NCBI GenBank assembly: GCA_947561395.2 | Contig: OX387190.1 | Span: 29,630,858-29,694,857 of the forward strand | DNA length: 64,000 nucleotides | Reading direction: 5' to 3' | Source of the DNA: Buxus sempervirens | Lineage: Eukaryota; Streptophyta; Magnoliopsida; Buxales; Buxaceae | Position numbers and translations under genes: made by a program | Shown here: piece after piece, positions 6,123-63,628 of the stretch | Numbering within the stretch: position 1 is the first letter of the stretch | Layout of the letters: each line of letters starts with the position of its first letter | The notes under the pieces: generated by a model | Seen by the model: only the letters and a program-made list of their open reading frames with translations | Told to the model about the DNA's origin: nothing | The model's database searches: none

Positions 6123-6388
6123 AACCGTACTGAATAAACGGTTTTTGTAATTTTGGTCTCAACCGCTCTGTATGTGCGGTTGCAACCGCACACACAGCAC
6201 GGTTGATATTCATGCTTCTCGCGTGAGGCGCCACGTGGCCACAGGCTGTTAGGCCGTTGAGCCACGTCGACAGCAATCATGACGAGCGTAACTGATTTGA
6301 ACCGCCCTATATGAACGGTTTGGTTAGATTTGCATAGAAACCGCACATGTAGTGACGGTTCTGTTGAAACCGCACTGTGTATACGGTT
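6123..6388 (+). promoter_or_regulatory. Cluster of six CCG-N11-CGG dyad modules (solo LTR U3)
   Basis: The units start at 6123, 6161, 6184, 6300, 6339 and 6368. Five are exactly 21 bp with AACCG arms facing CGGTT arms across 11 bases. The one at 6339 has 12 bases between the arms. The cluster lies in U3, about 200 bp upstream of the TATA box. Confidence 0.85.
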
Positions 6389-6590
6389 TTGGCTATTTCG
6401 GGGATTTGCGAAATGGCTCGATCTCTGAGCCTTATTTACGCATATTACCTCTCTCTCAGGGACTTGAACTCCTTATTCCACCCTCCGAAACTTCTAGTAT
6501 TACAACAATTCAAGGCATTTGCTTGAATTGGAATAATCTAGAAGGCTTTTTTGGGCATACCCTTGGGACTCTTCTACCCTTGGCTTTGCC

Positions 6591-6598
6591 TATAAATA
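6591..6598 (+). promoter_or_regulatory. TATA box of the solo Tat-A LTR
   Basis: TATAAATA is followed by a C/T- and G-rich start region (AGAGGGGTCC). The same sequence occurs at equivalent positions in the other two Tat-A LTRs (12842 and 38170). Confidence 0.7.
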
Positions 6599-8435
6599 GA
6601 GGGGTCCTCCTCTTGCAAATGGCTGATAATTTGAAGCTTGGAAGCTCTGCAAGAAGAGGAGAAACTCTGCTGGATTGCTGCCTCAAGTGTTCAAGCTACC
6701 TAAGGTAAAGTCCTGATTACATTTCCAGCTTCTTCTTTACATTCCAACTCCCAACTTCTACCTTTCTGTAGTGTAAGGCCAGTTTGTGGTTGTTTGCAAG
6801 CCCCAAACCCCTTCCAAAGTACCTGGGAATCCTCTCTAGCCGTAAAACGTGAAGAGAGAGCCTTGGGAAAAGGAAGGTGGAATGGATCCTCTAGGCTTAG
6901 AACCTACAAGTGATGAAGAGCATGCTGTGAGGTTATTTTAAACCAATGGATGTTTATTTTCTGATGTTTTGCACTCGTTCATGGAGAAATATGTGAATCC
7001 TTGCTCTCAGTAGCAAAGGATTCCATCCTTCTCCTAGGGAGTGGATTTCCACATATTCACACACTTTTCACCATTTTTCATCAAATAGGCTAGATCTGGG
7101 ATTTCCGTGTTTAATATGGGAAATCTAAGATTATTGGCTTCAGAATGAATCTTAGAACTTCATGAGAGGGTTTTTACTGATTTTTAAGAGTTTTGGTCGA
7201 ATTCACTTGCACACATGCAATGATTTTGGTTTTTTTTTATCCAAAAACCTTCAAAACAGGGCAGATCTGTGGCCTGTGTTGGAATGCTTATAACTTCATC
7301 CTCCGGATGAATTTTTGAGTGATTTCAAAGACATGTGATAGATGGGAAGACCTAATTTATATCGGGAAATTTTCATTCACTTTTATGGAGCCAATTTTTG
7401 ACACCATCTGTTCAAAGTCTGTAAGTCAGTTCAGCCCAGATTGCTGAACTTGCCGCTTTGATGGTGCACCATTTGCTCAATTTTAATCCATTTTGAGTGA
7501 TTCTAATTCCTGAGTTTTCCTTCAGAAGTCTATTTTGATTTCCAACTGGTTTCAGCAGATTTTGATTTGATTTGCGCCTTGGGTGCTCGATTGACTCAGA
7601 GATGCTCGCTGGCATAGTCCAGAGCTAATCTGTGGCCTTCTAGGCCTGTTCAAGAGAGCACACAAGCCACATTTGGATAGAGTTTGGTATGAGGTTTTTT
7701 TTTTTGGAAAGATGGCACCACACACTTCCTCCATACCAATTTTCATGGATTTTTATTGAGCCAAACTCCACGAATAGGATTTTGAAAATGCCTACTCAAC
7801 ACTTTTTCCAAGTTATAACAGCAGATTTCAAATGTGGATATCTCTCTCATTTTTAATCGGATTGAGCTGAATTTTGTACTGTATACTCTACTATATAGCA
7901 GTGTTCAAATGGCTTTGGTTTCATTGGATTTGGATTTAAATTGAGTGAGTTATGGTTAATCGAAGCTTTCAAGCTCTTTTGGTATGATTTCTCCAGATTT
8001 GCCTTAGCTTGATTTTTCTTCATTTTTACTTTGATTTCCATTCACTCATGAAGTTTTAGAAGTGATGAATCCACGAAGAGAGTCTAAGTTCATTGGACTT
8101 CTCATGGGGAATGGTCACACACATCGTGCTTGTTATAAGCACCTCTTTGTTCATTTTTATTAACAAACAATTTCTAGCATAAGCAAGCATGTGGCAACCG
8201 TCTTAGACGGATGAGTGGGGGTGCCTAACACCTTCCCCCACTCATAAATAATTCCCCTTACCTGATCTCTGGATTTTTCCTTGTATTAGAGCTACTTTGG
8301 CTCTATTTGGCATAGATGAACCCTTTGGTGTCCATTCACACCTTAAAATGGATGGTGGCGACTCTATATCTTTTTGAACCCCGCGTGACGATATCGGAAG
8401 TCATCTTAGGTGACATTTCCATGTCTCACAGGCTG

Positions 8436-12260: not shown

Positions 12261-12373
12261 TGTAGACACCCCAAATTGCACCCCAATATAAGAGATTAAC
12301 TAAGAAGAGCTCCAAAGGTCTTATTTGAGCCTTGACATGTGTCAAACTTTCAAAAACTTTCAAAATCAGTGCC

Positions 12374-12640
12374 AACCGCACTGTGTATACGGTTTTCATA
12401 ATCTCGGTTTCAACCGCTCTGTATGTGCGGTTGCAACCGCACACACAGCACGGTTCACATCAAGGCTTGTTGCGCTGGCGGCCACGTGGCTTCGCGAAGC
12501 TTCGGCCGTTAAGCCGCGTGGACAGCACTCAATTAAAGCATAACTGAATTGAACCGCCCTGTATATGCGGTTTGGTCAAATTTGTACATAAACCGCACTT
12601 TAAGTGACGGTTGTGTAGAAACCGCACTGTGTATACGGTT
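12374..12640 (+). promoter_or_regulatory. Cluster of six CCG-N11-CGG dyad modules (Tat-A 5' LTR)
   Basis: The units start at 12374, 12412, 12435, 12552, 12591 and 12620. All have AACCG and CGGTT arms. Spacing is 11 bases, except 12 bases in the unit at 12591. They lie about 200 bp upstream of the TATA box. Confidence 0.88.
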
Positions 12641-12841
12641 TTGGCTGTTTCGAGGCTTTGCGAAATGGCTCGATCTCTGAGCCTTATTTACGCATATTAT
12701 CTCTCTCTCAAGGACCTAAACTCCCTATTTCACCCTCCGAAACTTGCTGAATTACACCAATTCATGCCTTGGAGGAGAATTGGAATAATCTAGAAGGCCT
12801 TTTTGGCCTACCCTTGGGACTCTTCTACCCTTGACTTGGCC

Positions 12842-12849
12842 TATAAATA
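12842..12849 (+). promoter_or_regulatory. TATA box of the Tat-A 5' LTR
   Basis: TATAAATA is followed by AGGGGTCCTCC. It is the likely core promoter for the gag-pol transcript. Confidence 0.75.
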
Positions 12850-14666
12850 GAGGGGTCCTCCTCTTGCAAATGGCTGACAATCTGAAGCTTAGAAGCTCTG
12901 CAAGAAGAAGGAGAACCTCTGCTGGATTGGCTACTCAACTGCTCAAGCTACTAAGGTAAGGCCTATTTGAGTTATTGCTTCCTCTTTAAGTTCTAGCAAA
13001 TCTCTCATCTTCTACCTTTCTGTAGTGTAAGACCACCTGGTGTTGTTTGTAGCCCCAAACCCCTTCTAAAGTACCTGGGAATCCTCTCTAGCCGTAAAAC
13101 GTGAAGAGAGAGCCTGGGGAAAAGGAAGGTGGAATGGATCCTCTAGGTTTCGAACCCTCAAATGATGTGCAAGCATGCTATATGGTTATTTTGAGCCCTT
13201 GAATGCTTCTCTGATCATTTTTGTATTTGGAGAAGATGTGAATCCATGCTCTCAATAGCCATGGATTCCAACTTTCTCATAGAAATGTGATTTTCCACAT
13301 CTTTGCACCCACTTTCCACCCCTTTTTTTTTATCAAAATATAGGCTAGATCTTGGATTTCCATGTAAATATGGAAAATCTGAGATCATTGGCCTTAGAAT
13401 GAGTTTTTAGAAGTTCATGAGTTGTTTTTCATGATTTTAAATTGTTTTGGTCGAATCCACTTGCACACATACACTGATTTTGGATTCTTATTCAAGGTTC
13501 TTCAAAAACAGGACAGATCTGTAGCCTGTCTTGGAATTCTTATAGCTTCATCCTCCGGATGAATTTTTGAGTGATTTCAAAGACATGTGATAGATGGATG
13601 TGTCTATTTAATATCTGGAAATTTTCGTCCACTTCCATGTAGCCAATTTTTGACACCATCTCTTCATAGTTTGTAAGACAGTTCAGCCCAGATTGCTGAA
13701 CTTGCCGCTTTGATGGTGCACCGTTTATTCGATTTTAATCCGTTTCATGTGATTCCAGTTTCTGAGTTTCCTTTGAGAAGTCTATTTTCATTTCCAATTG
13801 GTTTCAGCAGATTTCAATCTGTTTTGGTCTTGGGTGCTCAGTTGACTCAGAAGTGCTCGCTGGCATAGTCCAGAGCTCATCTGTGGTCTTCTAGGCCTGT
13901 TCAAGAGAGCACACAAGTCACATCCGGATAGAGATTGGTGTGAGGTTTTTTTCTTTGGAAAGATGGCACCACATACTTCCTCCATACCAATTTTCATGGA
14001 TTTTTATTGAGCCAAACTCCACGAATAGAGCTTTGAAAATGCCTACTTAACACTTTTTCTGAGTTATAACAGCAGATTTCATATGTGGATTTCTCTCTCG
14101 TTTTGGATCGGATTGAGCTGAATTTTCTACTGTATACTCTACTATATACCAGTTTTCCAATGGCTTTGGTTTCATTTGATTTGGATTTGAATTGGGAAAG
14201 TTATGGTTTATCAAAGTTTTCAAGTTCTTTTGACCTATTTTCTCCAGATTTGCCTTAGCTGGATTTTCTTCATTTTTTACCTTGATTTCACTTCACTCAT
14301 GAGGTTTTAGAAGTGATGAATCCACAAAGAGAGCCTAAGTTCATTAGACTTCTCATTTGGAATGATCACATACATGGTGCTTGTGGTAAGCATCCTTTTG
14401 CCCATTTTGTTAGAAAAATGATTCTAAAGTATAAGCAAGCATGTGGTAACCGTCTTAGACGGATGAGTAGGGGTGCCTAACACCTTCCTCCGCTCATAAA
14501 TAATTCCCCGTACCCAATCTCTGGATTTTCCTTGTATTAGAGCTACTTTGGCTCTATTTGACATCTATGAACCCTTTGGTGTCCATTCACACCTTAAAAT
14601 GGATGGTGGCGACTCTTTACATTTTATCGATCCCCGCGTGACGATAATCGGAAGTCATCCATGTCT

Positions 14667-17058
14667 TTTGCTTGCTTATTCTTTGTTTGATTTTATTGAT
14701 TGTTTGTTGATTGGAGTGATTGTAATAAGCATGCTGATGTGAATGCTTCTATACCTAGAGAATGTGAGACCATAGGAAATAGGGCATGAGATGTGTGATG
14801 CTTTGTTTATGCTCAAAACCATGTTAGGAGACCTAGCTAGTTTTACCATGCTAGGCTACCGTGTTTATATGACGAGCATGTTTTGATTAGGATTCTAATG
14901 TCATTGAGCATGTGATCAGGATTTTTAGGGAGATATTTTGAATACGTCAAAAGCATGCTCACCATAATTGAATACTATTTGTTGTATGATATGATAACAT
15001 GCCTCCATGTTTGCATGATTGTGTGAATGCATATTTAGATGGAGCATGCTAGGCTTTCTTTTATTTAATTGAATGTTCCCATGTTTATTAGCTTCAAAAT
15101 GATCTCTATATCATGCCTTGGTGTGTATGGCTTGCATGGCTGCGAAAAAAGAGTGGCAAGGGTGGGACGTTGTGTTGAATGTGACCCACTTTTTCAAATG
15201 CACTTGTGCACCTTTTTTTCTTTTTTACACAGCCTACCTATCACCTATAGGAAGTTGAACAAGAATGTGGGTAGCTTGGCGCACCGAGGTCGTTACTTCG
15301 GAAAGCGAAAGTGAAAACATTCACCTTAGAGACTTTGAGCCAATGATGTGATGACATGGTGGATCTAGAATTCTGGTCATACACTAGGCTTGAGCTCTAA
15401 GTTGCCAATAAGCCAAAACCCAAAACCCCTACGCGAAGGTGGAGAAACACCCTTTTGGCCAAAATAAACCAAATGCGATGGGGAAGGGTTTGTAATGAGG
15501 GAAGGCCATCTTGCATGGCTCAGGTGACCCGAGGTATGATATGGATACCATCTTGAAGATAAACTTGAGGTAACAAGGTATTTTCAAATTTTTCCCTTGT
15601 AATAACCTCCATACTTTATAAGAAGCAAGGTTATAGTGTCCATTTGTTGGGATTTTGTTTTTCCCAGAAAATTACTGTTAGCCTAAGATTGGTGTAGCCC
15701 TTAGAGAGAGTTTTTACTCTTCTTAGGTGTCATTCTACCCAAATGCCCATAGGAGGCACCCAAAAGGCCCAAAATCCATGCATTAGGTGTCCATTTTTAG
15801 GAGGGAGCCTATGCCCTCCTTTGTATGAATATGGCTAATCCTCTTTCTTGCAGGGAATTTGTGTGTGAAGGCCATCCAAGAGCTGCTGGTGCAAGGAGCC
15901 TCTTCTTTTTTCTTTTGTGTAGAAATTTTCATTCTCTAGCGCAAGGAGGCTAAAACTGTCATTTTTATTTTGATTCATGCCCTTGAAGGCCAATTTGTAT
16001 TGTAACATGTTTCTTTCATTATAAGAGATCTGTTTGTGCATATTTATGGTCTCCGCATGCACCTTCATGAAATTCATGGTCTAAGCGGGCTTTTAATGCC
16101 ATTTGATGCGTCAAATGCCCAACTTGGGGCAGTCTGGGGGCCACCCAATGGTGAACAATGTGTTTGGGTATTTAACCAAGCTAATGAAACCAATTGGAAA
16201 AAAGAACAAATCGAAAATCTCATTTTCGGCTGGAAACCGTCCTGAGTATGCGGTTGTCTGCATTCTCGCTGCAACCGCATGTTTCATACGGTTTGAGCCA
16301 AACCGTCCTGAGTGTGCGGTTTTAAGCCGAAATCCCATTCTGGCCATGCTAATTAAACATTTCTGGGTCCTTTCATCCCTAAGTTATATAAGCAAGTGTG
16401 CAGTGACTCCAAATAAGATAAATGGCATTTAAACCATTCCAAATCCACCTAGATCAAGAGATTAAGGTCCTTTTGAACATATTCACCTAAATTGAGCAAA
16501 TTAATCCAACTCAAAGGTGAAATAAAAGTTGGCTCAAACCAAAAATCAGGTCAAGCACCAAATTTCGGGGTTTAAGCTCATGTTAGGCTCTTTTTACCTA
16601 ATTTGAACACCTAACCCATCTTAATTGAAGTAAATGATTAAAAGAAAATTGGTTCAAATAACCAACCTAATCATACTTCAACCTCAAGAATTAAACTTGG
16701 AAATCACAATAAGCTTCCAAAGCATGTTTTAGGCCTAAAGTGGGATCTAAACCAAGAGTAAAAGGAAAAGAGGCTCAACTCTTTAAAATAGAGCAAATTC
16801 CAACCAAAAATAAGAAATCTTTAATCATAAAGTATTCAAACTTTTAAGATTTCAACTCATGGGGTCACTGAGAAACCTCTGAATTCCAAGCAAATGATCA
16901 ATTAAGGATTCAATGAAAAAAAAAAAAATTTTTTTTTTTTTTTAATAAATCACCACCTCAAAGATAAAGTGAGTCTCTTTTTAACTCAAAATACCTAAGG
17001 CTGGAAATCAAAAATTTTTTTTAGGCATCTGAAAGCCTTGGAATTTCAGAAAAATCAA
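14667..17058 (+). other. Untranslated leader of Tat-A, first part
   Basis: There is no credible coding sequence between the 5' LTR and gag; stops are frequent in all frames. It contains one dyad-module cluster (16235-16321) followed by a TATA-like TATATAAG at 16384. The last 60 bases hold A and T homopolymer runs that may be unreliable in the assembly. Confidence 0.7.
16235..16321 (+). promoter_or_regulatory. Three CCG-N11-CGG dyad modules in the Tat-A leader
   Basis: Three 21-bp units start at 16235, 16273 and 16301, all with AACCG and CGGTT arms. The first and third share the centre TCCTGAGTNTG. The sequence TATATAAG begins at 16384, about 60 bp downstream, so this could be a second, internal promoter ahead of gag. 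Confidence 0.75.
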
Positions 17059-18071
17059 TTCATAGGACTCCTGGAAGCCTGAAATTCCAGACTTTTTCAA
17101 AATCTTCATAGGCCTTCTAAAGCCTGAATTTAGAAATTCATAGGACTCCTGGAAGCCTGAAATTCCAGATTTTTTCAAAATCTTCATAGGCCTTCTAAAG
17201 CCTGAATTTAGAAATTCATAGGACTCCTGGAAGCCTGAAATTTCAGACTTTTTCAAAATCTTCATGGGCCTTCTAAAAGCCTGAATTTAGAAATTCATAG
17301 GACTCCTGGAAGCCTGAAATTCCAGATTTTTTCAAAATCTTCATAGGCCTTCTAAAGCCTGAATTTAGAAATTCATAGGACTCCTGGAAGCCTGAAATTC
17401 CAGACTTTTTCAAAATCTTCATAGGCCTTCTAAAGCCTGAATTCAGAAATTCATAGGACTCCTGGAAGCCTGAAATTCCAGACTTTTTCAAAATCTTCAT
17501 AGGCCTTCTAAAGCCTGAATTTAGAAATTCATAGGACTCCTGGAAGCCTGAAATTCCAGATTTTTTCAAAATCTTCATAGGCCTTCTAAAGCCTGAATTT
17601 AGAAATTCATAGGACTCCTGGAAGCCTGAAATTCCAGACTTTTTCAAAATCTTCATAGGCCTTCTAAAGCCTGAATTTAGAAATTCATAGGACTCCTGGA
17701 AGCCTGAAATTCCAGACTTTTTCAAAATCTTCATAGGCCTTCTAAAGCCTGAATTTAGAAATTCATAGGACTCCTGGAAGCCCGAAATTCCAGATTTTTT
17801 CAAAATCTTCATAGGCCTTCTAAAGCCTGAATTTAGAAATTCATAGGACTCCTGGAAGCCTGAAATTCCAGACTTTTTCAAAATCTTCATAGGCCTTCTA
17901 AAGCCTGAATTTAGAAATTCATAGGACTCCTGGAAGCCTGAAATTCCAGACTTTTTCAAAATCTTCATAGGCCTTCTAAAGCCTGAATTTAGAAATTCAT
18001 AGGACTCCTGGAAGCCTGAAATTCTAGACTTTTTCAAAATCTTCATAGGCCTTCTAAAGCCTGAATTTAGA
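17059..18071. repeat. 78-bp minisatellite, about 13 copies, in the Tat-A leader
   Basis: These are head-to-tail copies of a 78-bp unit that begins TTCATAGGACTCCTGGAAG and ends GCCTGAATTTAGAAA, with very few differences between copies. One copy carries an extra A near 17277. Because 78 is divisible by three, the minus strand reads as a repetitive 26-residue peptide, which I do not take as a gene. The high similarity of the units points to recent expansion or ongoing unequal exchange. Confidence 0.95.
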
Positions 18072-18514
18072 AAATCATAGGCCCCTGAAAGCCTGCGTAA
18101 TTTCGGGAGGTTGTGGAAGCCTTAATTACAAAGCATAAGCCCTTGGAAGCTTATGTAATTCCAATGCTTGATTTGACTATGGGCTTTTACCATAGCCATA
18201 TCATTTTGTGGGACATGTTGGAGGCCCTAGAATACTCCAACAAAATTTCTGAGGTTTGATCTTTTTCGTATCAATCACCTCGTCTTAATAAGGTTATTTT
18301 AACCATAAATACAAAAATCAAAAAAGAAAAATATATGAATGCAAAGAGAACCCCAGACTCATGTTCACCAAGCCTACATGCATGCATAGGTGTGTAAAGT
18401 TGATTGGATGGGATACTAACATTTTTCTCTTTTGTCTTTTTCCTTTTACTAAGGTACTAAGTTCCTACTGCAACCATTGCTCCCCGACGTTCTCAGAGAT
18501 TAAAAGCTGCTACC
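18072..18514 (+). other. Tat-A leader, last part before gag
   Basis: This holds no gene. A pyrimidine-rich stretch ending TTTTACTAAG (about 18425-18455) just before the gag frame could be a splice acceptor, but no donor could be matched to it. Confidence 0.4.
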
Positions 18515-20836
18515 ATGAACCCTGCTGAGGAACAATCCACTGTTTCGGCTGAGGCCTTTGCTCAACTGCAAGAGCAAGTGGCAGGGATGACCAAACTATT
18601 GGAGAATTTGCTGGCCAACCAAGCCGCTCAGGCTCAGGTGCAGGCGCAACAGGCGCAGGCTCAGGTTCACCAGGCTTCATCATCCCACAATGCACCACCA
18701 CAGGCTCCACCCCAGACTGAACTTCCACCACCAATCCAACCTATCCCACCTCAACCTGAACTCTCTCATCCAAACCCCGAGCCTATCCTGATCCGGGAGG
18801 AGGAATCTGAATGTGAGAGGGAAAAGGAGAAAGAAAAGGAGAGACTGAGGGTAGAAGTGGAAAGAAAATTTTTGGACAAACTGGAGTCCATTCAAGAGGA
18901 ACTGAAAGAAGTGAGGGGGATCAACACGTTGGATGGTACCAACTTCCAAGATCTCTGCCTGTACCCCGACGCATGCTTACCGGCCAAATTTAAGTGCCCG
19001 GACTTTGAGAAATATGACGGCACCGGATGCCCAATGAGCCATCTGAAGCTCTACTGTGGGGCGTTATGCCAATTTGGCCAGGATGATGGCATCCTGATCC
19101 AGCTGTTCCGGAGAAGCCTAACTGGGGCAGCCTTGAGATGGTTCGCAACTGTGGACCACGGCAGAATCAGAAGGTGGAAGGACCTAGCTGATGCTTTCCT
19201 TGCTCAGTACCGTTTCAATGTAGACATCGTGCCAGATAGGTACGATATGATGAAAATGAGTAAGGGAAGAGAAGAGACAGTTAGGCAATATGCCAAAAGG
19301 TGGAGAGAAGCCGCCTCTCAAGTCAGGCCTCCCATGATGGAGCCAGAGATGGTTACCACCTTCATTGGCACACTGGGGCATCCATTTTACAATCACTTGG
19401 TGGGTCAGGTTACCACCAGTTTTGCTGCCCTAGTGTTAGTCGCGGATCGGATTGAAGATGGAATCAGATCCGGGCGAATCCACGACCATTCTGCCACGAC
19501 TCGTCAACAGGAGCCAACTTTTGATCCTTCTGCCCAGAAGCAGAAAAATGGGGCAAGAAGGAATGGAGGAAAGAAAGAAGGGGAAGTAAACATGGTACAA
19601 CCCCAACCACCACAGAAACCCATCCAGATCAATATTGCTGCACCTCCACCCAGTCCAGTGCAGCCACAATCGACCTATCAAAACCCTCTCAACATTAATG
19701 TTCCTCAGGCAGCAATGCCCAACCAAAAAAGGGTATTCTCAAAAGAGGAGAGAGACGCTTGGATGGCGTCCAGAAGGAGCAGGGTCCTTTCCCCTCTTCC
19801 TGTGACTCCATCCCAACTTTTGCCATCTTTGTTAAACGCAGGGTATGTCACCCTGAAAGAACCAAATCCGAATGCTTCAAAGGGAAAGAATTTCGATCCC
19901 TCCACCACCTGTGAATACCATATGGGTGCACCAGGACACCCTACAGACAGGTGTTGGCCATTAAAACATGCCATCCAGGATTTGATCGATCAGGGAACCC
20001 TGTTGTTTAACACAGCTGCACCCTCTCCCGCCAGGACTGACATTGGTCAGAATCCTCTGCCCCAGCATAATGGGGCTGGTCCTTCCAATTTTGTAGGGAC
20101 CATCTCTTCTAGACCTAGGACTTTTGATCCCTCGCAGCTGATTGCGCCAATAGGGACGTCTGTTAGGGTCTATTTTGACCAGGAAGAGATAGAGGAACAA
20201 ATCAATGTCATTTCTGGAAATAATGGAAATGGCGAGACTGCAGAGGACATTAATGCCTCTCTAAACCGGGCCGCTTCTCTCATGGCCCAGCTTAATGTAG
20301 CCAAACCCCCTCTCATTATTAATTGCAACCAGGCTGTTGCTTCCCCACCTACTCCATCATCCAAACCATCTTTGGTCATTAATTATGACCCCACCACTGC
20401 TTCAATTACGTCTGTTTCTTCTCAGACCTTAAAATCCTCTCAACCCAAGGCACCAAGGCAATCTTCGCCTCTGGTTATTGAGGTGCCTTCTTCTAACCTT
20501 AATCCCACATCAACTCCTGCACCAAGGTTTCATCTCCAACCCTTGGTATTTAACGTTCCTAAACCCTCCTATTCAGAAACTGCTGTACCTTGGAACTACA
20601 GCGAGGGTTATACGACCACTATCCCAGTGGCCGGGAATCAGGGTCAGGAGGAGGTAAACCTCGTGACAAGATCAGGGAGGTGTGTGGAAGGAAAAGAACA
20701 AGAAAAGAAGGAGACAGAGCAAGTCCAGAAGGGGAAGGCCAAAATAGGGGAAGACACCCCTCAGGTCGACAGTAAGGAGGCAGAAGATCTCCTAAAAATA
20801 CTGAAAAAAGTGAATTCAATATTGTCGACCAATTAA
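18515..20836 (+). pseudogene. Tat-A gag
   Basis: This encodes a gag polyprotein of 773 residues as it stands, starting MNPAEEQSTVS. A Gln/Ala-rich coiled stretch (residues 15-60) and a Pro-rich stretch are followed by a charged EKEKEKERLR segment. Next comes the retrotransposon gag domain at about residues 165-330 (TGAALRWFATVDHGRIRRWK, QYAKRWREAA). The C-terminal half is Pro/Ser-rich and includes a Cys/His segment (CEYHMGAPGHPTDRCW, about 19912-19959). The frame ends at 20836 after a shift in an A-run near 20800. In the other frame the conserved Tat motif (AQISILGLLLNSEKHRDSLM) continues to a TAG at 20918-20920. Gag would assemble the element's cytoplasmic particles. Confidence 0.9.
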
Positions 20837-22290
20837 CCAAGGTCCCTGCCCAGATATCAATACTGGGATTATTGCTTAATTCAGAAAAGCATAGGGACTC
20901 ATTAATGAAAGTACTCTAGAGCGCCCACGTGCCCAAAACAATTGAGCCAGACCAGCTCGGCACAATGATCGGCCAGATCCTATCTCACAATGTAATAAGC
21001 TTTTCAGAAAGCGAGATAAGCCCTGGTGGAGGTTATCACATGGACCCTTTGCACATCACTGTGCTCTGTAAGGGTAGCATGATAGCCAGGGTCCTAATTG
21101 ACAATGGGTCAGCCCTAAACGTCTGCCCCCTTGTAACTTTTGTGAGGCTTGGTCTGGACCAATCCAAGATAAGGCAGAACGGGAGGATTGTGAGAGCTTT
21201 TGATAGCTCCAAAACACACTCCCTAGGGGAGATTGAATTGCCGATTACCATCGGACCGAATATCTTTAATATCACATTCGAAGTGATAGATATTCCTGCT
21301 GCCTTCAATCTACTTCTGGGAAGGCCATGGATCCACTCAGCTAGGGCTATACCCTCTACTCTTCATCAAAGAGTAAAATTTATAAAAGGCCTGAGGGTGA
21401 TAACGGTCCTAGCCGAGAGTCTAGTCCCTCCCGTCATACCACCTGACGTACCTTTCATTAATGTAGAATTAACGGCAGACAAAATTGCCTTTCACTCTTT
21501 TCAGTTTGAGACAGTCAACTTCATACCTGGGGGGTGTCTAAAAAAGAATGAGAAGTTGACCTGCGCCAATAAGATGGTGGAGAAGGTCTTAAAGGATTGC
21601 AATTTCCACCCAGGAAAGGGGTTGGGCATTAACCTGCAAGGAAGGGTGACGCCCATAGAGGCACAGAGGCTAGTCCCACGAGTAGGACTAGGGATGAAAA
21701 TAAGAAGATGGAAGAGGGGACCACAGAAAGAAAATGGTGGTGCGGGGGGAAAGAATCAAGGAAAATTCCCTCATTTAAGGGAAACTTTCCCGAAGCCCTC
21801 TCATACCATTCAATTGGCTCCTCCTACAGATTCCTCCAAGCCTCCGTATTTCAATGACAACCCTTTCAGAAAACCTTTTACCTCAACCCTTCAACCTTTT
21901 ATCCCCCTCTCATCCACTTTGGCGCCCAAAGCCACGGGTGAGCCTGAGCCACTGCCACAAGAGCAGCAGGATTTCACAGAAGAGATAGGGGCATTCTTTG
22001 CAATGACAGAGAATGAAGGAAGAGAGAAAGCAGAAGAAGAGGTTCCTTTTATCGACTGGGCCTCAATCAAAATTCCTGATGAGGTCACCTCTGAACTCAG
22101 CCCCGAAACAGAAAAGGGCAGTTTTTCAAATCCGGTAATGATGGTATCGGATCAAGAGTTTGAGGAAGAACGGGTTTGCACTATACCACCTGTTCCAGAG
22201 GGCTTTGTATTGAAAAATTGGGAAGAGACCCCTTTGACGTTTGAGGCTGCATATGGTTGGCAATCAGCTGCGGCCTCCAAAAAAAAAAAC
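20837..22290 (+). pseudogene. Tat-A protease and G-patch-like region
   Basis: This is the start of the pol region, open from about 20929. The aspartic-protease-like domain has ARVLIDNGSALNVCP as the active-site loop (about 21085-21129) and FNLLLGRPWIHSA downstream. The Asp-Asn-Gly in place of Asp-Thr/Ser-Gly is seen in other Tat elements. A G-patch-like segment follows (NFHPGKGLGINLQGRV, about 21601-21648), then a low-complexity linker. The frame breaks in an A-run at about 22279-22290 and continues in another frame. The function in an intact element is cleavage of the polyprotein. Confidence 0.85.
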
Positions 22291-24100
22291 TCCATTAGTG
22301 GATTGCCCTTTTCCTGAAGGTTTTAATGAACCTTCATCTTCAGGAAAAGCCTCTTTAGAAGGTTCTCAAAAAACCCAAAAAGATTTTTCAATTTTTTCTA
22401 GAAAATCTAAAGCTTTCAAAATGGTCCAGACTGCTTATGAGCCATATATACAGACTGAATTAGAGCAAGTTGAATATGACTTCGATCTCGAGCTCGACTT
22501 CGACCTAATGGGGATCGAAGAGGAGATCGAGGCCGAAGACGATGACCTTCCAAGAGAAATATCATATCAATTGGAACGTCACGAAAAGGGTATTCAACCT
22601 AATATTGAAGAAACCATTTCCACAAACCTGGGAACCGAAGAGGACCCAAAAATTGTAAAGATTGGTGCATGCTTGTCTGAAATGCAGCAGAAGGAAATGT
22701 CCCAATTCTTGGCCGATTACAAGGACGTGTTCGCATGGTCTTATCGGGATATGCCAGGGTTGGATACAGACATGGTTGTACACAGGTTGCCAATCCTGCC
22801 AGGAGTAAAGCCTATTAAGCAGAAATTGAGAAGGTTGAAACCAGAATGGACTTTGAAAGTCAAAGATGAAGTAGTAAAGCAGTTTCAAGCCGGGTTTTTG
22901 GCGGTGTCCACATACCCTGATTGGCTAGCCAATATAGTCCCAGTTCCAAAGAAGGATGGAAAAGTCAGGATGTGTGTGAATTACAGGGATTTGAACAAGG
23001 CGAGCCCGAAGGATGATTTTCCATTGCCACACATCGACATCTTGGTTGATAATACGGCAGTGCACAGCTTGTTCTCTTTCATGGATGGCTTTTCCGGATA
23101 CAACCAAATCAAAATGGCAAAGGAGGATCAAGAGAAAACCGCTTTTATCACTCCTTGGGGAACTTTTCACTACACAGTCATGCCTTTTGGATTGAAGAAT
23201 GCCGGGGCAACATATCAGCGAGCCATGACGGCCCTTTTCCATGATATGATCCACAAAGAGATGGAAGTCTATGTGGATGATATGATTGCCAAATCATGTG
23301 AAGAGGAAGACCACTTGATCAATCTAAAGAGGGTATTTGACCGTCTAAGGAAGTACAGCTTAAGGCTTAATCCAGCAAAGTGTGTCTTTGGAGCCACATC
23401 AGGGAAATTGTTAGGCTTCATTGTAAGCAGAAGAGGGATTGAGATAGACCCGTCTAAAGCCAAGGCAATCATTGAGATGCCATCTCCTAAGACTGAAAAA
23501 GAAGTTAGGGGCTTTCTGGGAAGAATTCAGTATATCAGCCGGTTCATAGCACAACTCACTGCTATTTGTGAGCCGATCTTCAAACTTCTAAGGAAGAATA
23601 ACCCAACTATATGGAATGAGGATTGCCAACAAGCATTCGACAAAATAAAAGATTATCTGTTAAATCCACCTGTTCTAGTACCACCAATCCCAGGGAAACC
23701 ACTGATTCTGTATCTATCAGTTCTAGAAACATCAATGGGATGCGTATTGGGGCAGCATGATGAAACAGGCAAAAAAGAAAAAGGCTATCTACTATTTGAG
23801 CAAGAAGTTTACAGATTATGAGACAAGATATTCGCCTTTGGAAAAGACTTGTTGCGCTTTGGTCTGGGCAACTCAGAGGCTTAGGCACTATTTCTTAAGC
23901 TATTCAACTTTGTTGATTTCCAGGATGGATCCGTTGAAATATCTGTTTGAGAAGCCGACTTTAACTGGTAGAACAACGAAGTGGCAGCTTTTGCTTTCAG
24001 AATTCGACCTGACATATGTCACTCAGAAAGCAATCAAAGGTCAGGCAATTGCTGACCACCTAGCTGAGCATCCATTACCAGATTATCAACCTCTTAAGAC
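22291..24100 (+). pseudogene. Tat-A reverse transcriptase and RNase H
   Basis: The reverse transcriptase spans about 22790-23420 with VPVPKKDGKVRMCVNYRDLN, MDGFSGYNQIKM, MPFGLKNAGATYQ and the catalytic VYVDDMIAKS near 23267. The connection (RRGIEIDPSKAKAI, VRGFLGRIQYISRFI) leads into the first RNase H domain. A frameshift in an A-rich run at about 23765-23785 falls inside RNase H (GQHDETGKK to AIYYLSKKFTDYE). Together with the other breaks this makes the element dependent on other copies for movement. Confidence 0.92.
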
Positions 24101-29511: not shown

Positions 29512-29571
29512 ATCCGGCCTCAGTGGCCGGATACACATGGGCCCTAGGTGATCCGGCCTGAGTTGCCGGAT
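29512..29571 (-). promoter_or_regulatory. Two dyad modules in the Tat-C LTR, distal group
   Basis: Two 21-bp units (29512-29532 and 29551-29571) have ATCCG and CGGAT arms and 11-base centres GCCTCAGTGGC and GCCTGAGTTGC. They lie about 2 kb downstream of the LTR TATA box in transcription direction. Confidence 0.8.
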
Positions 29572-31561: not shown

Positions 31562-31570
31562 CCTTTTATA
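31562..31570 (-). promoter_or_regulatory. TATA box of the Tat-C LTR
   Basis: The minus strand reads TATAAAAGG directly after the module group at 31583-31824. Confidence 0.65.
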
Positions 31571-31582
31571 AAAAATTAATGT

Positions 31583-52250: not shown

Positions 52251-54156
52251 TTGTGAGACATGGAAAAATCACCGGAGTGATCTCCCTCCGTCAACACACG
52301 GGGCTCGACGTAAAGAGTGGGAGTCGCCACGATTCATTATTTTGAGGTGAGAATGGACAGCAAAAGAGTGAAAAACAAACAAAAAGAGACAAAAATGCTA
52401 AAAGACAAATTCTAGAGTAAAAATAACCCTACTTGAAAATCAAATCCAGAGATGGGTAAGGGGATTAGATTATGAACGGGGGAAGGTGTTAGGCACCCCC
52501 ATTCACCCACACAAGGTGTTTGCCAAGTATTTATTCATGCTAAAAGAAAATAGAAAGCTTGCTAAAAAATCATGAAAAAGCCTTGAAAAAGGAACAAGTG
52601 TATGATATATTCACATGAAGATCCAAATGGATTCTAGATCTTCTCTTATGTCAATATCATTTCTGGAATATCACAAAAATATGGAAATCAAAATAGAAGT
52701 TGCATAAAACCAAGTTCAATCAAATCCGGGAGGTTTGGTAAAAGTAAGGCAATCTTTCTTGAAATTAATCAAATCCAATTTTAAATCAAGCCAAACCAAA
52801 TCCATTTGAAAGATTAGGGTAAATAAGAGATTCATGCAAAATTTCAATCAAATCCGGTTGAAAACCTAGGAGTTATGGCTCTTTTAGGGTTGCTGCCGGG
52901 GATGATTAAAAGTGACAAGTGGGCATCTTTGGAAAATCATATAGAAAAATCCACTTCATAGAAATCCGTGAAATTTGGTGTCAATGAAGTCTGTATGGCC
53001 ATCTTTCAACAGAAACTGGCCTCATACAAAAACTCATTCGGATGTGCCTTGGGTGACTTCCCGAACAGGCCCCGAGGATCACAGATTGACCCAGAAAAGT
53101 GCTGTTGAGCAGTTCTGAGTAAATCCGCTCTCCACGACACAATTTAAATCAAAAAATTATAAAATCAATTGGATTTAAAAATAGACTCATAAAGGAGTGC
53201 CCAGAAACAAAAATCACTTGAATCGGATTTAAAACGAACACATGGCGCTCCGTCGAAGTGACAAGTTCTGTATTTAAACCTGAACTGACCAATCAACTTC
53301 GACAGAGAGGTGTCAAAAATCTGCTTGATAGAAATCAATGAAATTTGGTGGGTATAAACTAGACAGCCTCACCTTTCGCATGGTTCTAGAATCACTCCAA
53401 AATTCATCCGGATGATGAAGTTATGAGTGTCTGAAGTTAGGGTACAATTGCTGTCAAGTAAACCCTAATTCGAGTGAAACCAATACCAAAATGTGACAAA
53501 GTGTGTGCAAATTTGTGCAAGACAAACAAAAACCTTTAGAAATCATTTGAAAACATTCCAGAATTGATTGAGGCAATTTATTAGAGATTTATCACAATGA
53601 ACGTAACAAATCCCCAAATATGAGCCTATCCCGCCAAAAGAGTGTAATATGTGTGCAAGAGTGAAAAACCAAGCAAGATCAATACAACAACATATCATGC
53701 ATATAGATTCAACAAAATAGGTTCTAGAACAGCCTAGGGTTCCGTTCCATTATCGTTTCCCTTTGTTCTCTCTCCCCGTTAAACACGGTTCTTCAAGATA
53801 ATCAAGGGTACTTTGATTATAGAACGGTTTTCAATCATTCAAAAGGCTTCATGCTACATGGGTTCTAGTACTAGGGTCAATCCCCAGTCTCGTTTCTCCT
53901 AGATCCCGCCTTCACGTTTTACGGCTAGGGGGAGTCTCGAGATACTTTGAGCCGGGGAAGGATTTCCATACACAAACAAGGCTTTATTCTACAGAAAGGT
54001 AAAAGAAGAGATCTAGATCTAAGAAATTAAATACAGAAAATAGAAGAGGGTTGAGGCTTACCTGGGGTTCTGGAAGCAATCCGGCAGCGGTTCCCTTCTT
54101 CACTCGGAGCTCTTCAATCTCCAAATTCTTGGCCATTTGATTGAGGGGGAGCCTCC

Positions 54157-54164
54157 TATTTATA
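54157..54164 (-). promoter_or_regulatory. TATA box of the Tat-B LTR
   Basis: The minus strand reads GCCTATAAATAGG, the same context as in the Tat-A and Tat-D LTRs. Confidence 0.7.
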
Positions 54165-54321
54165 GGCAAAGGCTAGGGTTGTTGGTAGACACAACTTAAT
54201 GTCTAGAACCCTCCAACCTTAACCCTAAGGCTGTTTCCAAGATTTCCCCTCATTTAATGAGGGACATGATGGTAAAAAGTAATTTCTCTCAGAAAACCCT
54301 AATTTTGAGCAAAACTAATGT

Positions 54322-54420
54322 ATCCGGCAACTCAGGCCGGATACACTAAAGGCTCCTTGTATCCGGCACTTGAGACCGGATACGAAGGAAACTACTTGTA
54401 TCCGGCCTGAGTTGCCGGAT
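54322..54420 (-). promoter_or_regulatory. Three dyad modules in the Tat-B LTR
   Basis: The units start at 54322, 54361 and 54400. All are 21 bp with ATCCG and CGGAT arms. The symmetry extends to 25 bp (GTATCCGG and CCGGATAC). They lie about 160 bp upstream of the LTR TATA box. Confidence 0.88.
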
Positions 54421-54512
54421 ACAGGTAAAATTTTATTTTCTCCAAATTCTGTGCTGGCTTTCAAGGAGATGATGATTTTTGATGATTGTTTGTGCAATTT
54501 GGGGTGTCTATA

Positions 54513-55120: not shown

Positions 55121-55123
55121 TGT

Positions 55124-55200
55124 ATCCGGTATTATATACCGGATAAGGCATGGCTCGTGTGTATCCGGCCTGAGTCACCGGATACACATGGCTTTATAAG
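55124..55200 (+). promoter_or_regulatory. Promoter of Tat-B gene B: two dyad modules and TATA
   Basis: Two 21-bp units start at 55124 and 55163 with ATCCG and CGGAT arms and centres GTATTATATAC and GCCTGAGTCAC. TTTATAAG begins at 55193, 10 bp after the second unit. A leader exon and intron then lead to the ATG at 56450. Confidence 0.82.
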
Positions 55201-56449: not shown

Positions 56450-59110
56450 ATGGCTAGGAGTCGTTCCCGAGTTAGAGAGGAGGTTGACCCTGCTGACCAG
56501 CCTTCCACCTCGCGGGCTCGGACAGAGGTGAGTTCCAGTGCCACCTTGTCTGAGCCATTAGGTGACTCCCGAGAGAGCTCTGCTGAGGTAGGCTTTCAAA
56601 TTCTTTCTCTTCCTTTTCTTTCTTCTATTCTCCTTTCCCACACAACCTTCACATCTTTCTCTTGGAATTTAGCCCGTGGTTGCACCGGCTCGAGGTCGAG
56701 GCAGAGGCCGAGGCAGGGTTCACGATCAGGCCCTTGAGGGCGAGAGAGGCTGTGGCAGAGGCCGAGGTAGAGCCAGAGGTGCAGCTCAGGAGGGTACCGC
56801 TGTAGCTCTGTCAGGGGTCTCTGACGAACTGAGGGCATCTGTTCATGATACAGAGCTCCTCAGTGGCTTGGATATCCACCCCTCTATGTGCATCAGGGCA
56901 GATGTGCCGCTCCCCTACCATTCCTCCCACTTACGAGGCAGCTGGGGGAGATTCAGTGAGTTGGCACAGTCTCTCTCTCCGGCACTCAGGCGTGAGTTTG
57001 GGAGGTGCCATTTGGATCATTTCATCAGCATCCCATCTTTCAGAGCCGATCGTCCCCTTATTTTTGCTATGATTGAGAGATATTTCCCGGAGACTCAGTC
57101 CTTCCATTTACCGGACGTGGAGCTAGGGATCCGTCCCTCAGATTTTGTGATGATCACCGGTATTCCATTGACGGGGCGGACCATTGTCTTGGATCGGCCT
57201 TCTGCAGAGGATGTTGGGATCCTCTTAGGATATCAGGATCTGCCCCATGCTGCTTGGGATGGGCGCAGTGGCCGCCTCTCTATTAGCTGGTTGAGAGAGA
57301 GCTTGGCTCATCATTATGAGGGGAGGCACGAGACCATCTCCGTGGAGGACGCAGCCTTTGTGCCTATCTTCCGTCATGTTTTCCTGCTGATGCTTGGGAG
57401 CTGCTTCTTTCCGGAGGATACCACCAGTGTCAGTCCGCTTTTTTTGGATGCCTTGAGAGATCTCCGCCAGACCCGCCAGCTGGCTTGGGGTCGACTCATT
57501 TATGGGACCATCCTGGCCGGGTTGTGCCGAGTGGTTCGAGGCCTGGCATCCCCGCGAGGCGATGGAGTCAGTTGCCGGTTCTTCTGGCAGATTCTGCAGG
57601 TATTGGACTCATCTATCTGATTTAATTCTTTAGGTTTTATCCCCCTTTGTTTCTACCTGATTTTCCTTTTTCCAGGTGTTTATGTACACCTACATGACCT
57701 TTTTCCGCCCATCCCCTGTACCTGAGGTCGCGGATTTTCCTGTGGCTCTGTGATGGTCCGCCCAGGTTCGAGATGCTGATAGGAGCCAGCCTCGTACTGC
57801 CCGGGTGCACTTAGACCGTGCCCGCCGATCTGATGTAAGTCCTTTATCCCTTTGCCTTTCTCTTCTTGCCTCTTGACTGTATCTGACCCCTTTTCTTCTT
57901 TGCAGCTCATCCTATCACGTCCTGATGACGTGGATGTTGGAGTTGCCCGTGAGATGGCAGTACAGGATGCTTTTGAGAGAGATCTCAAACGTCAGCCCTA
58001 TCAGTGCTTCATTGGGAGGCTTGGTAGGGTGATGTACTTGGGAGAGCGCCTGTACTTTCAGCACACAGGCATACTTCGCATCCCCGTTCATCCTCCTCCT
58101 GTGGGTCCCGACACACTCCTCCCAAGCTTTGATGTGGATTAGTTCGACCATTTCATGGATGTGGAAGGGCTTACAGTAGAGGGGGATTACGACGAGTGGA
58201 TCCAGAGAGTCTCCATCGGATGCTTGATGGATCGACCCACTCGTGCCGGGGTGACGGAGATAGGCGGGATCTGTATCCGGATCCACAAGGACACGGTGAG
58301 TCTTGTGATACTCCTGTTTTTATCTGCTTTTCTGCCTTTATGCATTTCTGATCCCCCTTCTGTTCTTGTTGACAGGTACACGAGCTGAACACCATCAGGG
58401 ACCGGTTCGAGAGCCAGCGAGCCGCGATCGATGATATGATCGCAGAGCATGACGCGGTCGTGGCCCAGAGGGATGCCCAGATCAGGGAGCTGAAGGCCCT
58501 AGTTGCCGAGCTCCAGGCTAGACAGGTATCTAGTCTTTTCATTTTTCTCATTTCCCTGCTTCTGTTATTCTGATATAGCTTTTTTACTTGTGCAGGGCCC
58601 AGTCTATGAGCATGCCTTCTTTGTTCCTGACCCGTCCCCAGCTCGGGCTGCTGATCCCGAGGATGCCCCAGCGGCTAGTCCTGATGAGCCGGATCCTCCT
58701 GCTCCGTCTGCAGACATTCCTGGTATGCTCTTCTTTTAATTCTCCTCATTTATTCTTCCTTATATCTTGATCTTCTGATTTTTCTCTTTTCTGTGGACCC
58801 AGCTACTTCTGCTCCTGGTCCCTCTGCTGCTGACGCTGGGCCTTCTGGAGCTGCGGGAGCAGAGCCTGCTATGGCTGAGGGCCCAGTTGGGCCGGTTGCT
58901 GCTGAGCCAGAGGCTTCCTCCCCAGATTCTGCTCCTGCTCCGCCCCCAGACATCGAGGATTATTGCTTGGAGTATCAGCTTCAGCAGGTGGTGGGTCGGC
59001 ATCCTTGCCATGCAGCCGAGCGTATCCTTGCATACTCTAGAGGCCGATCACTTTGGGGGAGAGGCCGTAGAGGTGGACGCGGCCGAGGACGCGGGGATGA
59101 TCCTGCATAG
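56450..59110 (+). pseudogene. Tat-B antisense gene B: PMD-like protein with RG-rich ends
   Basis: This is the seven-exon homologue of 33021-35868. The exons are 56450-56587, 56673-57599, 57676-57834, 57906-58295, 58376-58525, 58596-58722 and 58803-59110, all GT-AG, summing to 733 codons. Exon 2 opens with an Arg/Gly-rich run (ARGRGRGRGR, CGRGRGRARG). It then has the PMD-like domain: RPLIFAMIERYFPETQSFHL, GIRPSDFVMITGIPLTG, FLLMLGSCFFPEDTTSVSP and WGRLIYGTILAGLCR. Exon 5 is a coiled coil (DAVVAQRDAQIRELKALVAE). The C-terminus is again RG-rich (RGRRGGRGRGRGDDPA). Stops at 57751 (TGA, from Arg CGA) and 58140 (TAG, probably from Gln CAG) inactivate it. Exon 3 is the same length, 159 nt, in both elements. 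Confidence 0.82.
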
Positions 59111-59322
59111 GAGTAGATTAGGATTTTCTTTTTTCATGTATTTACACCATCATCCTTGTACAAAAACTTGCATATATATATAAAAAAACTTTTTATTCAT
59201 TTTCCATTGTCTTGCACATCTTTTGTCTCCCATTTTATGCAATTATGAATTGTACACAGGTGAAACAGGTAAAAAATTCGGATTTTTTATCCTTAGCTCT
59301 TTTTTTTGCTGTTTTTCTTTGT

Positions 59323-59482
59323 ATCCGGCATATCAGACCGGATACATTAAATTTCCTTTGTATCCGGCATAATATGCCGGATACGCTAAGGTTTATTTGT
59401 ATCCGGCAAAGAATGCCGGATAAGGAGAGAAAGCTGTGTATCCAGCCTGATATGCCGGATACTTAAAAAACTTCTATAAAAG
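59323..59482 (+). promoter_or_regulatory. Promoter of Tat-B gene A: four dyad modules and TATA
   Basis: The units start at 59323, 59362, 59401 and 59440, with ATCCG and CGGAT arms. The last has ATCCA, a decayed left arm. TATAAAAG at 59475 follows 14 bp after the last unit, about 115 bp before the ATG at 59592. Confidence 0.87.
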
Positions 59483-61746: not shown

Positions 61747-62494
61747 TGTGCGCACCTAAACCTGGCCTAGATCGCACACCGGGCGCACCTTCAGCGCGTG
61801 CCTCGGGACATTCGGAGTCGCCACTGCCTGAGAGTGCAGGCAGACACGGTTTTGCCCTAATCGGGTCTAAGTCTGGTCTGCGGCTTTTCAGAGTTCTAGC
61901 TAAGTCCTCGATTACGATCCGGGGAAGTCCTAAAGACACCCCGGTCCGTCCCGTCGGTTTGACGGGTCCCTCGGGTCTCCCTGGTTCTTGAGTCAAATTC
62001 ACCCTTTTCCTAGACCAGCATGCTGTATTGTTAAGTCTAGCGGGGCCTTCTGAAGGTGTGGGTCCCTTTTATTTGATTTTATCTTTTTATTGATTTAAGT
62101 GGAGTGGGTCGGACCCGGGTCCCGTTGGAAGACCCGTGGGCTGCCATGGTTGGGCCTTGGGCCCAGTTGGGTTATTGAGTAACCCATTTGGTTATTTTAC
62201 TAAGTTTTGTTTATTTATAATTTTAGTCTGGGCTTAGTGGGTTTGGAATAGGCCCATTAGCCAAAGTCCAGTGGCCTGGGCCCGTTTTATTGAAAACGGG
62301 CCTGGTACGGGCCGGTCTAAATGTGGGCCCTCAAGTGGGCCCAAGGGGAATCTTGATGGGCCCGTATGGGCTCAAAGTCAGAAATGGGCTTAAGAAAGCC
62401 CAAAAATGGTTAAGGGGATGGTTCAAGCCGGTTTAGACCGGAATTGGTCCAACCGAACCAAGAAATTACACTTTTACATTATTTTTACGTTTCG

Positions 62495-62596
62495 CCCGTG
62501 TTTGCTCTGCGGTCCGGCTTGCCCGTAAATGAATTCCGGTCCCCTTTGTCCGTGAATTAGCTACGGTCCAGGCTGGACCGGCCTGAGTTTACGGAC
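62495..62596 (-). promoter_or_regulatory. Four dyad modules in the Tat-D LTR, distal group
   Basis: The units start at 62495, 62521, 62548 and 62576. All keep CCG, 11 bases, then CGG. The outer arm bases vary (GC, GT or GA on the left, TC or AC on the right). The last has the centre GCCTGAGTTTA, similar to centres in Tat-B and Tat-C. Confidence 0.8.
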
Positions 62597-63391
62597 GCGA
62601 CCCAGTTTGCTTGTTTGCTGCCGATTCTGCTTGGGATGTATTCCGTGGCCTTCTCAGATATTCTGGTGACTTTAGCAACGATCTCAAGTCATTCAAAATG
62701 CTTCATATTCCCCATTTGGCCTAAATGGCCATTTCTTCCTTCATTGATGTCTTTGCTGGAAAACCAGCTCTTCATTAGTTGCCCATGGCCAATTTCAGGG
62801 GGGAGTAGGGGGTATTTACAGGGGTGATTTTAGCAGCAAAAGGTGGTCTAAAACTTCTTCTTCATCCAGGCATAAAAAAAGGCTTTGATTAGCTTATTCA
62901 AGAGTCCTTTTAAGCCTTTCTCTTCCCACTACTCTCTCTTTTATTTTCATATAACTTCCTTCTTTATTTTAACTTCCCATAACTTAGAAAACAGCAAATT
63001 GATTAGTAACACTAAAATCAAAATATCTAAAAGAAGCTTAAAAAGACATTAAAAATGCTAATCACATTAGGAAAAGGGGATATACTCACAATATGCTTAC
63101 TCAATAATGGTGATTCCTCCGGCAAATTCGGCAGCGCTTCCGCGTCCTCCAAGGTTTGTTAGGATGAATTAGGAAGGGCTTGGCTAAGGTGGATGGGTTT
63201 AAGACCAAACTAAAGAGAATATGGGCATGGCTTTGAGGTAGTTTAGAAATATAGGGGTAATTTGGGAATTAAAATAGGTTTAGGTTAAGGGTGATGGTAG
63301 TTGGACAGAGTATGGCCGAGGTAATCACATAGGCAGAGAGGGGAGAGGCCAGGGAAGGATGGCTTGTTCAAATGAAGGGGGGTGGCCTCTC

Positions 63392-63399
63392 TATTTATA
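63392..63399 (-). promoter_or_regulatory. TATA box of the Tat-D LTR
   Basis: The minus strand reads GCCTATAAATAGAG, starting 15 bp past the promoter-side module group. Confidence 0.7.
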
Positions 63400-63413
63400 G
63401 GCAAAAATCCCGT

Positions 63414-63628
63414 GCCCGTATTTGGAATACGGGCGTACCCTGCCCGTAATTCCAATACGGGCTGCCTTGACCGTAATTTAAATACGGGCGAAAAACGAAT
63501 ATTTGCAATTATCGCAGATTCGTCCGTACAGGACGCGTGTTCCGCCGTACGGCGACGCGTGTCTTCCTTCTAGAAGCGTGCCCGTATTTAAAATACGGGC
63601 ATGCCCTGCCCGTAATGTAAATACGGTC
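63414..63628 (-). promoter_or_regulatory. Five dyad modules in the Tat-D LTR, promoter group
   Basis: The units start at 63414, 63442, 63469, 63580 and 63608. Each is 21 bp. The arms are GCCCG and CGGGC, with GACCG in one and CGGTC in another. The centres are A/T-rich (for example TATTTGGAATA). Confidence 0.87.

Follow-up and report, generated by a model that had tools for sequence, protein, structure and literature searches.

A 64,000-nt stretch of contig OX387190.1 of Buxus sempervirens (hereafter the window) holds a nest of retrotransposons in which a paired motif, CCG-N11-CGG, recurs in clusters, both within long terminal repeats (LTRs) and at the promoters of antisense genes encoding plant mobile domain (PMD) proteins. 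This dyad is a real, strong and genome-wide feature, and the large retrotransposons of this genome carry thousands of such near-invariant paired sites with a gap of 11, the gap being the number of bases between CCG and CGG. The link of the dyads to the antisense PMD genes goes beyond the first-pass annotation, made from the letters of the window, in which the motif was noticed.

Dyad clusters in the nested elements

The nest was resolved by self-comparison, LTR ends and target duplications. E4, a large Ty3/gypsy element bounded by LTRs that are 99.5% alike (5' from 12261 to ~14663, 3' at 37589-40011), carries two antisense genes, PMD1 and PMD2, and the same two genes are present in E5, which lies on the minus strand. 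E3 and E6 are solo LTRs, whilst E7 is a minus-strand LTR that follows E5 and runs out of the window (~61750-64000). E4 frames at 22238-24890 match reverse transcriptase RNase H and RVT_3, and the element thus has the dual RNase H that characterizes the Tat group according to the available part of one source (PMC9289625) and to general knowledge. Dyad clusters, listed without strand, were assigned to classes A, B and C by the arms that flank their triplets:

6018..8430, plus strand: E3 solo LTR (target duplication GGCTG, by eye)
6123..6388: class A cluster, U3 of E3; six units, five with gap 11 and one with gap 12
12261..40011, plus strand: E4, large Ty3/gypsy element (dual RNase H; CTGAT target duplication)
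12374..12640: class A cluster, E4 5' LTR; five gap-11 units and one gap-12 unit, the last 203 bp before TATA
16235..16321: class A cluster, E4 leader before gag
18461..25883, plus strand: gag, G-patch frame, reverse transcriptase, two RNase H and integrase of E4
26430..26517: class A cluster after pol of E4
26940..28458, minus strand: PMD2 of E4, antisense, DUF7745/PMD, main part; first part beyond E6 at ~32408-32541
28464..32407, minus strand: E6, 3.9-kb solo LTR inserted in E4 PMD2 (target duplication CCCAC)
29509..29574: class B cluster, downstream part of E6; two units, the second with symmetric variant arms GTGAT..ATCAC
31580..31827: class B cluster, U3 of E6; five units, the last 14 bp before TATA (minus strand)
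32672..32789: class A cluster, promoter of E4 PMD2; three exact units and one decayed
33024..35868, minus strand: PMD1 of E4, antisense, several exon-like frames; PMD match at 34740-35393
37150..37247: class A cluster, promoter of E4 PMD1; three units, 12 bp before CATAAA by eye
37702..37968: class A cluster, E4 3' LTR; copy of the 5' LTR cluster
52252..54512, minus strand: LTR of E5
54319..54423: class B cluster, U3 of E5; three units, 159 bp before TATA
55121..55186: class B cluster, promoter of E5 PMD1; two units, 13 bp before TATAAG
56450..59107, plus strand: PMD1 of E5, antisense to the element, with a PMD match at 56673-57617 and several exon-like frames
59320..59463: class B cluster, promoter of E5 PMD2; four units, one with a decayed triplet, 16 bp before TATAAA
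59592..61340, plus strand: PMD2 of E5, antisense to the element, DUF7745/PMD; exon 59592-60299, then 60450 onward
62494..62596: class C cluster, downstream part of E7; four units, arms less regular
63414..63628: class C cluster, U3 of E7; five units, the last 16 bp before TATA

Exact CCG-N11-CGG occurs 55 times in the window. Any other gap between 3 and 30 yields 0 to 16 occurrences, and 200 dinucleotide shuffles yield the gap-11 form 2.3 times on average and never more than 7 times. In 46 of the 55 exact units the core is flanked by two further complementary bases (shuffles: mean 0.16, maximum 2). With four lone exact sites excluded (8381, 33844, 37037 and 61941), the remaining 51 exact units form 14 clusters in five insertions; the same clusters also hold a unit with a decayed triplet at 59442 and three gap-12 units (6341, 12593 and 37921), and two further decayed sites lie near 32701 and 26402 (by eye). 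The first-pass annotation had reported 57 units in 12 clusters, a total that agrees with ours although the number of clusters does not; three decayed units enter both counts, and its three gap-12 exceptions are, as it stated, copies of one LTR unit, in E3 (6341) and in the two LTRs of E4 (12593 and 37921). It had further assigned the clusters to LTR families. Mapping of the clusters rejected a restriction to LTRs: eight lie within LTRs, and six lie outside, in the E4 leader, after pol and at the promoters of the antisense PMD genes. The reverse orientation, CGG-N11-CCG, occurs 17 times in the window because units at a 28-bp step create it.

Arms are common to the clusters of an element and differ between families. 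Across the LTR, leader, post-pol region and both antisense promoters, all 22 distinct units of E3 and E4 read AACCG..CGGTT (class A), and TAT..ATA adjoins the core (class B) in all nine units of the E5 LTR and both of its antisense promoters, one of them with a decayed triplet. Class B arms are also present in six of the seven E6 units, the seventh carrying a symmetric variant, whilst E7 has arms of the CCCGT type, with less regularity in its downstream cluster. The 56 exact units counted in 16 further E4-type PMD2 promoters belong without exception to class A, in copies that are close relatives (PMD2 92-98% identical). A or G stands at distance 10 on the left side in 116 of 117 clustered exact units from the window and further loci, which gives the general form R-N-CCG-N11-CGG-N-Y. 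The centre also varies, as the first-pass annotation had it, but not freely, since identity of the centres falls from 0.66 within clusters to 0.43 between them, shuffled sequence giving 0.32; class A centres often read CTGTRT or CTGAGT.

Steps between neighbouring units are quantised. Of those shorter than 60 bp, measured centre to centre with the E4 3' LTR left out (n = 31), 11 are 27-29 bp, 18 are 38-40 bp and two are 23 bp, the two main values differing, it appears, by about one helical turn; five longer steps measure 69, 104, 111, 116 and 117 bp. Tandem Repeats Finder reports 31580-31684, 59314-59422 and 63413-63490 as arrays with periods of 39, 39 and 27, respectively, and 80% matches, for which the common arms can account. 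At the 39-bp step, spacer identity is 0.35 for pairs from one cluster (7 pairs) and 0.31 for pairs from different clusters (59 pairs), and because spacers are barely more alike within a cluster than between clusters, most arrays are not recent tandem copies; at the 28- and 27-bp steps a single within-cluster pair each gives 0.80 and 0.25. Copies of one recent tandem array, the explanation against which the first-pass annotation had set its claim, do not seem to describe these clusters, and a simple tandem satellite was rejected since the likeness of whole units, spacer included, is absent at the 39-bp step.

Distances to TATA are closely kept at the antisense promoters. The last unit ends 13 bp before TATA in four of four copies of E5-type PMD1 (E5, L010, L021 and L022) and 16 bp before it in three of three copies of E5-type PMD2 (E5, L010 and L022), and in E4 it lies 12 bp from CATAAA at PMD1 and 15 bp from TATTTTAA at PMD2 (by eye). 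Of the 16 further E4-type PMD2 promoters, TATTTTAA follows the last unit in 12, a close variant in one and neither in one (by eye), the other two having a decayed last unit. In the LTRs of E6, E7, L004 and L005, the last unit stands 14 to 18 bp before TATA. Overall, TATA matches 10-20 bp past a unit number 10 against 3.1 expected, with family copies that are not independent, and two of the ten (31624 minus and L008) look like chance. The plan is shared by other copies in the genome, with clusters before PMD1 and/or PMD2 in L010, L021 and L022, LTR clusters also in L022 and L021, and an LTR cluster together with a cluster before gag in L024, L021-L024 having been selected by class B matches.

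Genome-wide counts and conservation

The scan of the window's own genome covered 676.5 Mb in 247 contigs. The class B pattern, TGTATCCGG-N9-CCGGATAC, which is equivalent to gap 11 and was counted on the forward strand, has 16,782 matches, compared with 14 when shortened by one base (gap 10), 10 when lengthened by one (gap 12) and 0 when read backwards. The class A pattern, AAACCG-N11-CGGTTT, is found at 3,904 places (control 116), and its gap-12 form at 161 (control 155). These counts stem from repeated families and do not represent independent events. An excess of gap 11 over gaps 10 and 12, on whose absence the first-pass annotation would have given up its claim, is therefore present in class B, and over gap 12 in class A. 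The gap of 11 still has exceptions: the LTRs of E3 and E4 share a conserved gap-12 unit, which many of the listed class A gap-12 matches resemble.

An unbiased sample was taken as twenty 10-kb pieces of contig C12, chosen blind to the motif and evenly spaced over 1.0-29.5 Mb of its 43.6 Mb. In these 200 kb, gap 11 occurs 47 times and the other 27 gaps 5 to 23 times each; with two complementary outer bases, gap 11 occurs 29 times and the other gaps 0 to 8 times. Gap 24, which ranks second in the sample, is by geometry the gap that class B neighbours at a 39-bp step produce. Further arm types appeared here, namely GTAACCG..CGGTTAC and TGTATCCGA..TCGGATAC.

Half-sites are conserved beyond their surroundings. 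Between the LTRs of E3 and E4, arm bases are identical at 50/50 positions of gap-11 units and 10/10 of the gap-12 unit, compared with 47/55 and 9/12 in the centres, 200/264 in the U3 flanks and 1713/2003 in the rest of the LTR (Fisher P for the arms 5e-6 against U3 flanks and 0.006 against centres); the centres are kept no better than the LTR overall. Across 17 E4-type PMD2 promoters, the 40 half-site columns are without change except C>T/G>A, whereas changes of other kinds amount to as much as 6.1% in the spacers, 3.1% in the centres, 4.5% in the sequence upstream and 1.1% in the flank downstream. The C>T changes would fit loss of methylated cytosines after insertion.

The antisense frames match PMD/DUF7745 in Pfam and not DUF1985. 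Ratios of nonsynonymous to synonymous substitution (dN/dS, NG86 method) lie at 0.05-0.15 in 8 of 10 PMD1 pairs and at 0.07-0.18 in 5 of 6 PMD2 pairs, the three remaining pairs, all with E4, having no ratio and dS with E4 being near saturation; by these ratios, the PMD frames are under constraint. With the E5 query, 9 of the 150 best PMD2 matches out of 5570 candidates contain a stop, and with the E4 query 16 of the 150 best out of 5380 (by eye), a choice of matches that favours intact frames. PMD2 of E5 itself has one in-frame stop from 60450 onward in this copy. E4 and E5 are 56% identical in PMD1 over 206 codons and 75% in PMD2 over 192, and because PMD1 differs more, it may be the protein that carries specificity. 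By eye, the C-terminal portion of PMD2 resembles a coiled coil, which would be suited to pairing.

Protein searches returned one homologue for PMD1 (P0001, 26% identity over 56%) and none for the PMD2 exon, which also had no match among solved structures; viral contigs searched with the PMD2 exon, a reverse transcriptase stretch and the class B pattern gave nothing. P0001, a PMD protein, touches DUF1985 at E 0.13, which is too weak to count.

A putative control circuit and its rivals

The constant gap combined with changing arms, borne out here as the first-pass annotation had proposed, is what would be expected of a dimer that reads two half-sites, a reading that is well supported at the sequence level. 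We infer that a dimeric protein, or two related proteins together, would bind two everted CGG half-sites with centres 14 bp apart and would also read the family-specific bases flanking them. Such dimers would be arrayed about 28 or 39 bp apart, in register, upstream of the LTR promoter and of both antisense PMD promoters, and the bound arrays would set transcription of the LTR and PMD genes or protect them from silencing. Activation or anti-silencing is the favoured direction of control, as the TATA-proximal arrays at the element's own genes would fit either at least as well as repression. The regulator may well belong to the family, because arms agree at all promoters of one element and differ between families, and it is probably encoded by the element. 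The antisense PMD proteins would be the first candidates, since they are made from promoters carrying the same sites; with PMD1 and/or PMD2 as the binder, the circuit would regulate itself. We thus give roughly even chances to the dyads being operator sites of an element-specific control circuit with PMD proteins as its first candidates. A narrower proposal is more tentative and in our judgement somewhat doubtful: that the gypsy antisense PMD proteins are a family-private dimeric regulator whose target is the gap-11 dyad at the LTR and at their own promoters, with arms that changed together with the protein between families.

Several points weigh against the proposed circuit. The copies compared are relatives and their counts are not independent. 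The LTR clusters of E4 and E5 lie 203 and 159 bp from TATA, and are thus not adjacent to it, and no recognisable TATA stands beside the leader, post-pol or downstream-LTR clusters. Class B arms are shared by E5 and the solo LTR E6, in which no PMD gene is seen, so that the arm class need not follow an element's own protein, and likeness of arms within an element could reflect old copying between its clusters. The literature covered, in the parts available, gives PMD no DNA target, and an AlphaFold model of one PMD1 exon, computed without an alignment, reached a mean pLDDT of 37 and was not used.

The main rival, which we consider unlikely though still to be reckoned with, is that one plant family of dimeric CGG-reading host proteins serves the elements, each element family having adapted to a different member and having no regulator of its own. 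E6 would fit this explanation equally as well as it would fit a non-autonomous user of the E5 system, and LTR promoters commonly use host factors. Plant LBD proteins read everted CGG half-sites with a shorter gap, although a search of the open-licence literature for such LBD sites found nothing, and no host factor that reads a gap of 11 in the CCG..CGG orientation is known to us. The arms of all clusters of an element change in concert, its PMD genes being retained, for which a family-owned regulator is the simpler account.

Hairpins in the nucleic acid, or palindromes kept symmetric by template switching during copying, would serve no protein, and are improbable here. The argument for them is the symmetry of the arms: among the 117 units, left and right bases complement each other 100 times at distance 9 (52.9 expected under independence), 111 times at distance 10 (85.5), 85 times at distance 11 (62.1) and 90 times at distance 5 (50.4), an excess partly due to the mixture of arm classes, and two fully symmetric variants of the class B arm occur. 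Against this, the CCG/CGG triplets are constant where other stem bases vary, a hairpin loop has no need of exactly 11 bases between triplets, at distance 5 the class A bases internal to the triplets pair in no more than 5 of 22 units, the steps between units are quantised, and sites adjoin TATA. A nucleoprotein complex for packaging or integration instead of transcription, to which the clusters in the leader and after pol might point, is very improbable, given that the best fixed positions are at antisense gene promoters that such a function does not need.

Among known systems, the first-pass annotation had named the Gal4-type sites of zinc-cluster proteins as the nearest architectural analogy. 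Gal4 reads CGG-N11-CCG as a dimer, and the two CGG triplets and the gap of 11 are alike. The analogy nevertheless fails in orientation, as the triplets here point the opposite way (CCG-N11-CGG), and flanking arms are part of the site. Pfam reported no zinc-cluster (Zn2Cys6) domain among the window frames scanned.

A parallel to an element-encoded regulator is offered by the VANDAL DNA transposons, whose anti-silencing VANC proteins, according to the parts of the accounts available, bind short motifs that are repeated in non-coding parts of the element and differ between families (PMC5735166, PMC10398659). A family-specific motif repeated in non-coding parts of the element is likewise found here. 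In a VANC-type system, the bound protein also removes DNA methylation. The motif reader is encoded by the VANDAL element, as is proposed for the present elements. Unlike these, VANDALs are DNA transposons, the VANC21 motif YAGTATTAY is not a dyad (1 match in the window against 1.19 expected, and thus no enrichment), and VANC carries DUF1985 and DUF287 whereas the elements here encode PMD/DUF7745, which places them outside the VANC family.

Gypsy elements of the Retand lineage have, in the part of the account available, a long region between pol and the 3' LTR with antisense genes and tandem repeats for which a regulatory role was proposed (PMC11963269). They resemble the present elements in having antisense genes between pol and the 3' LTR, and differ in that their antisense domain is TRP28 (PF04195), where ours is PMD/DUF7745; TRP28 did not turn up in the frames scanned, and the available part of that account mentions no dyad (PMC11963269).

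The sources available on PMD proteins state that clades A1 and A2 are encoded by gypsy elements only (PMC5418596, PMC7156037) and that the host proteins MAIN/MAIL1 act in silencing and gene expression (PMC5418596, PMC7156037, PMC9899485). The proteins encoded here share the PMD with MAIN/MAIL1 and with the known gypsy-encoded clades, whilst the promoter motif tied to MAIN/MAIL1 in these sources, DOWN (CATGCAGTTT in MORC1), is a different sequence and is not enriched in the window (8 matches with <=1 mismatch against 6.39 expected). No description of the dyad was found in the open-licence literature searched, where few searches were aimed at the motif and subscription journals were mostly outside coverage.

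With >20,000 exact sites of one rigid geometry tied to antisense PMD promoters, the function of gypsy PMD genes becomes a question for the bench. If the elements carry private regulators, retrotransposons would have their own equivalent of the VANC systems and would provide a natural set of non-cross-reacting protein-site pairs. The family-private proposal, if true, would assign a DNA target to the plant mobile domain and would suggest an origin for the silencing function of MAIN/MAIL1 in the host.

Other features of the window

An Rfam scan of the window gave no family above threshold. A tRNA-Ser call at 63408-63488 overlaps the class C dyads and was rejected as probably artefactual, produced by their palindromes. 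Long LTRs of the E6/E7 type, also represented by L042 with L004 and L005 with L041, have a second dyad pair far downstream of the first; 19-kb stretches around two of them held no match to E2, E4 or E5 proteins, and such LTRs may therefore be non-autonomous.

E2, a chromodomain gypsy element at 3368-10858 with 320-bp LTRs (3368-3687 and 10539-10858), has its reverse transcriptase region split by the E3 solo LTR that sits inside it. In E4, the leader before gag contains a tandem array at 17057-18095 (13.3 copies of 78 bp, 97% alike), and a frame with a G-patch domain lies between gag and reverse transcriptase (20920-22314). Insertion of E4 split a subtilase gene with Peptidase_S8, inhibitor I9 and Fn3 parts (11749-12459 and 39985-41944, minus strand). 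A stretch including the subtilase end is duplicated, with 1-3368 plus 10858-12136 matching 47617-52250 at 96-98%, and E5 begins there.

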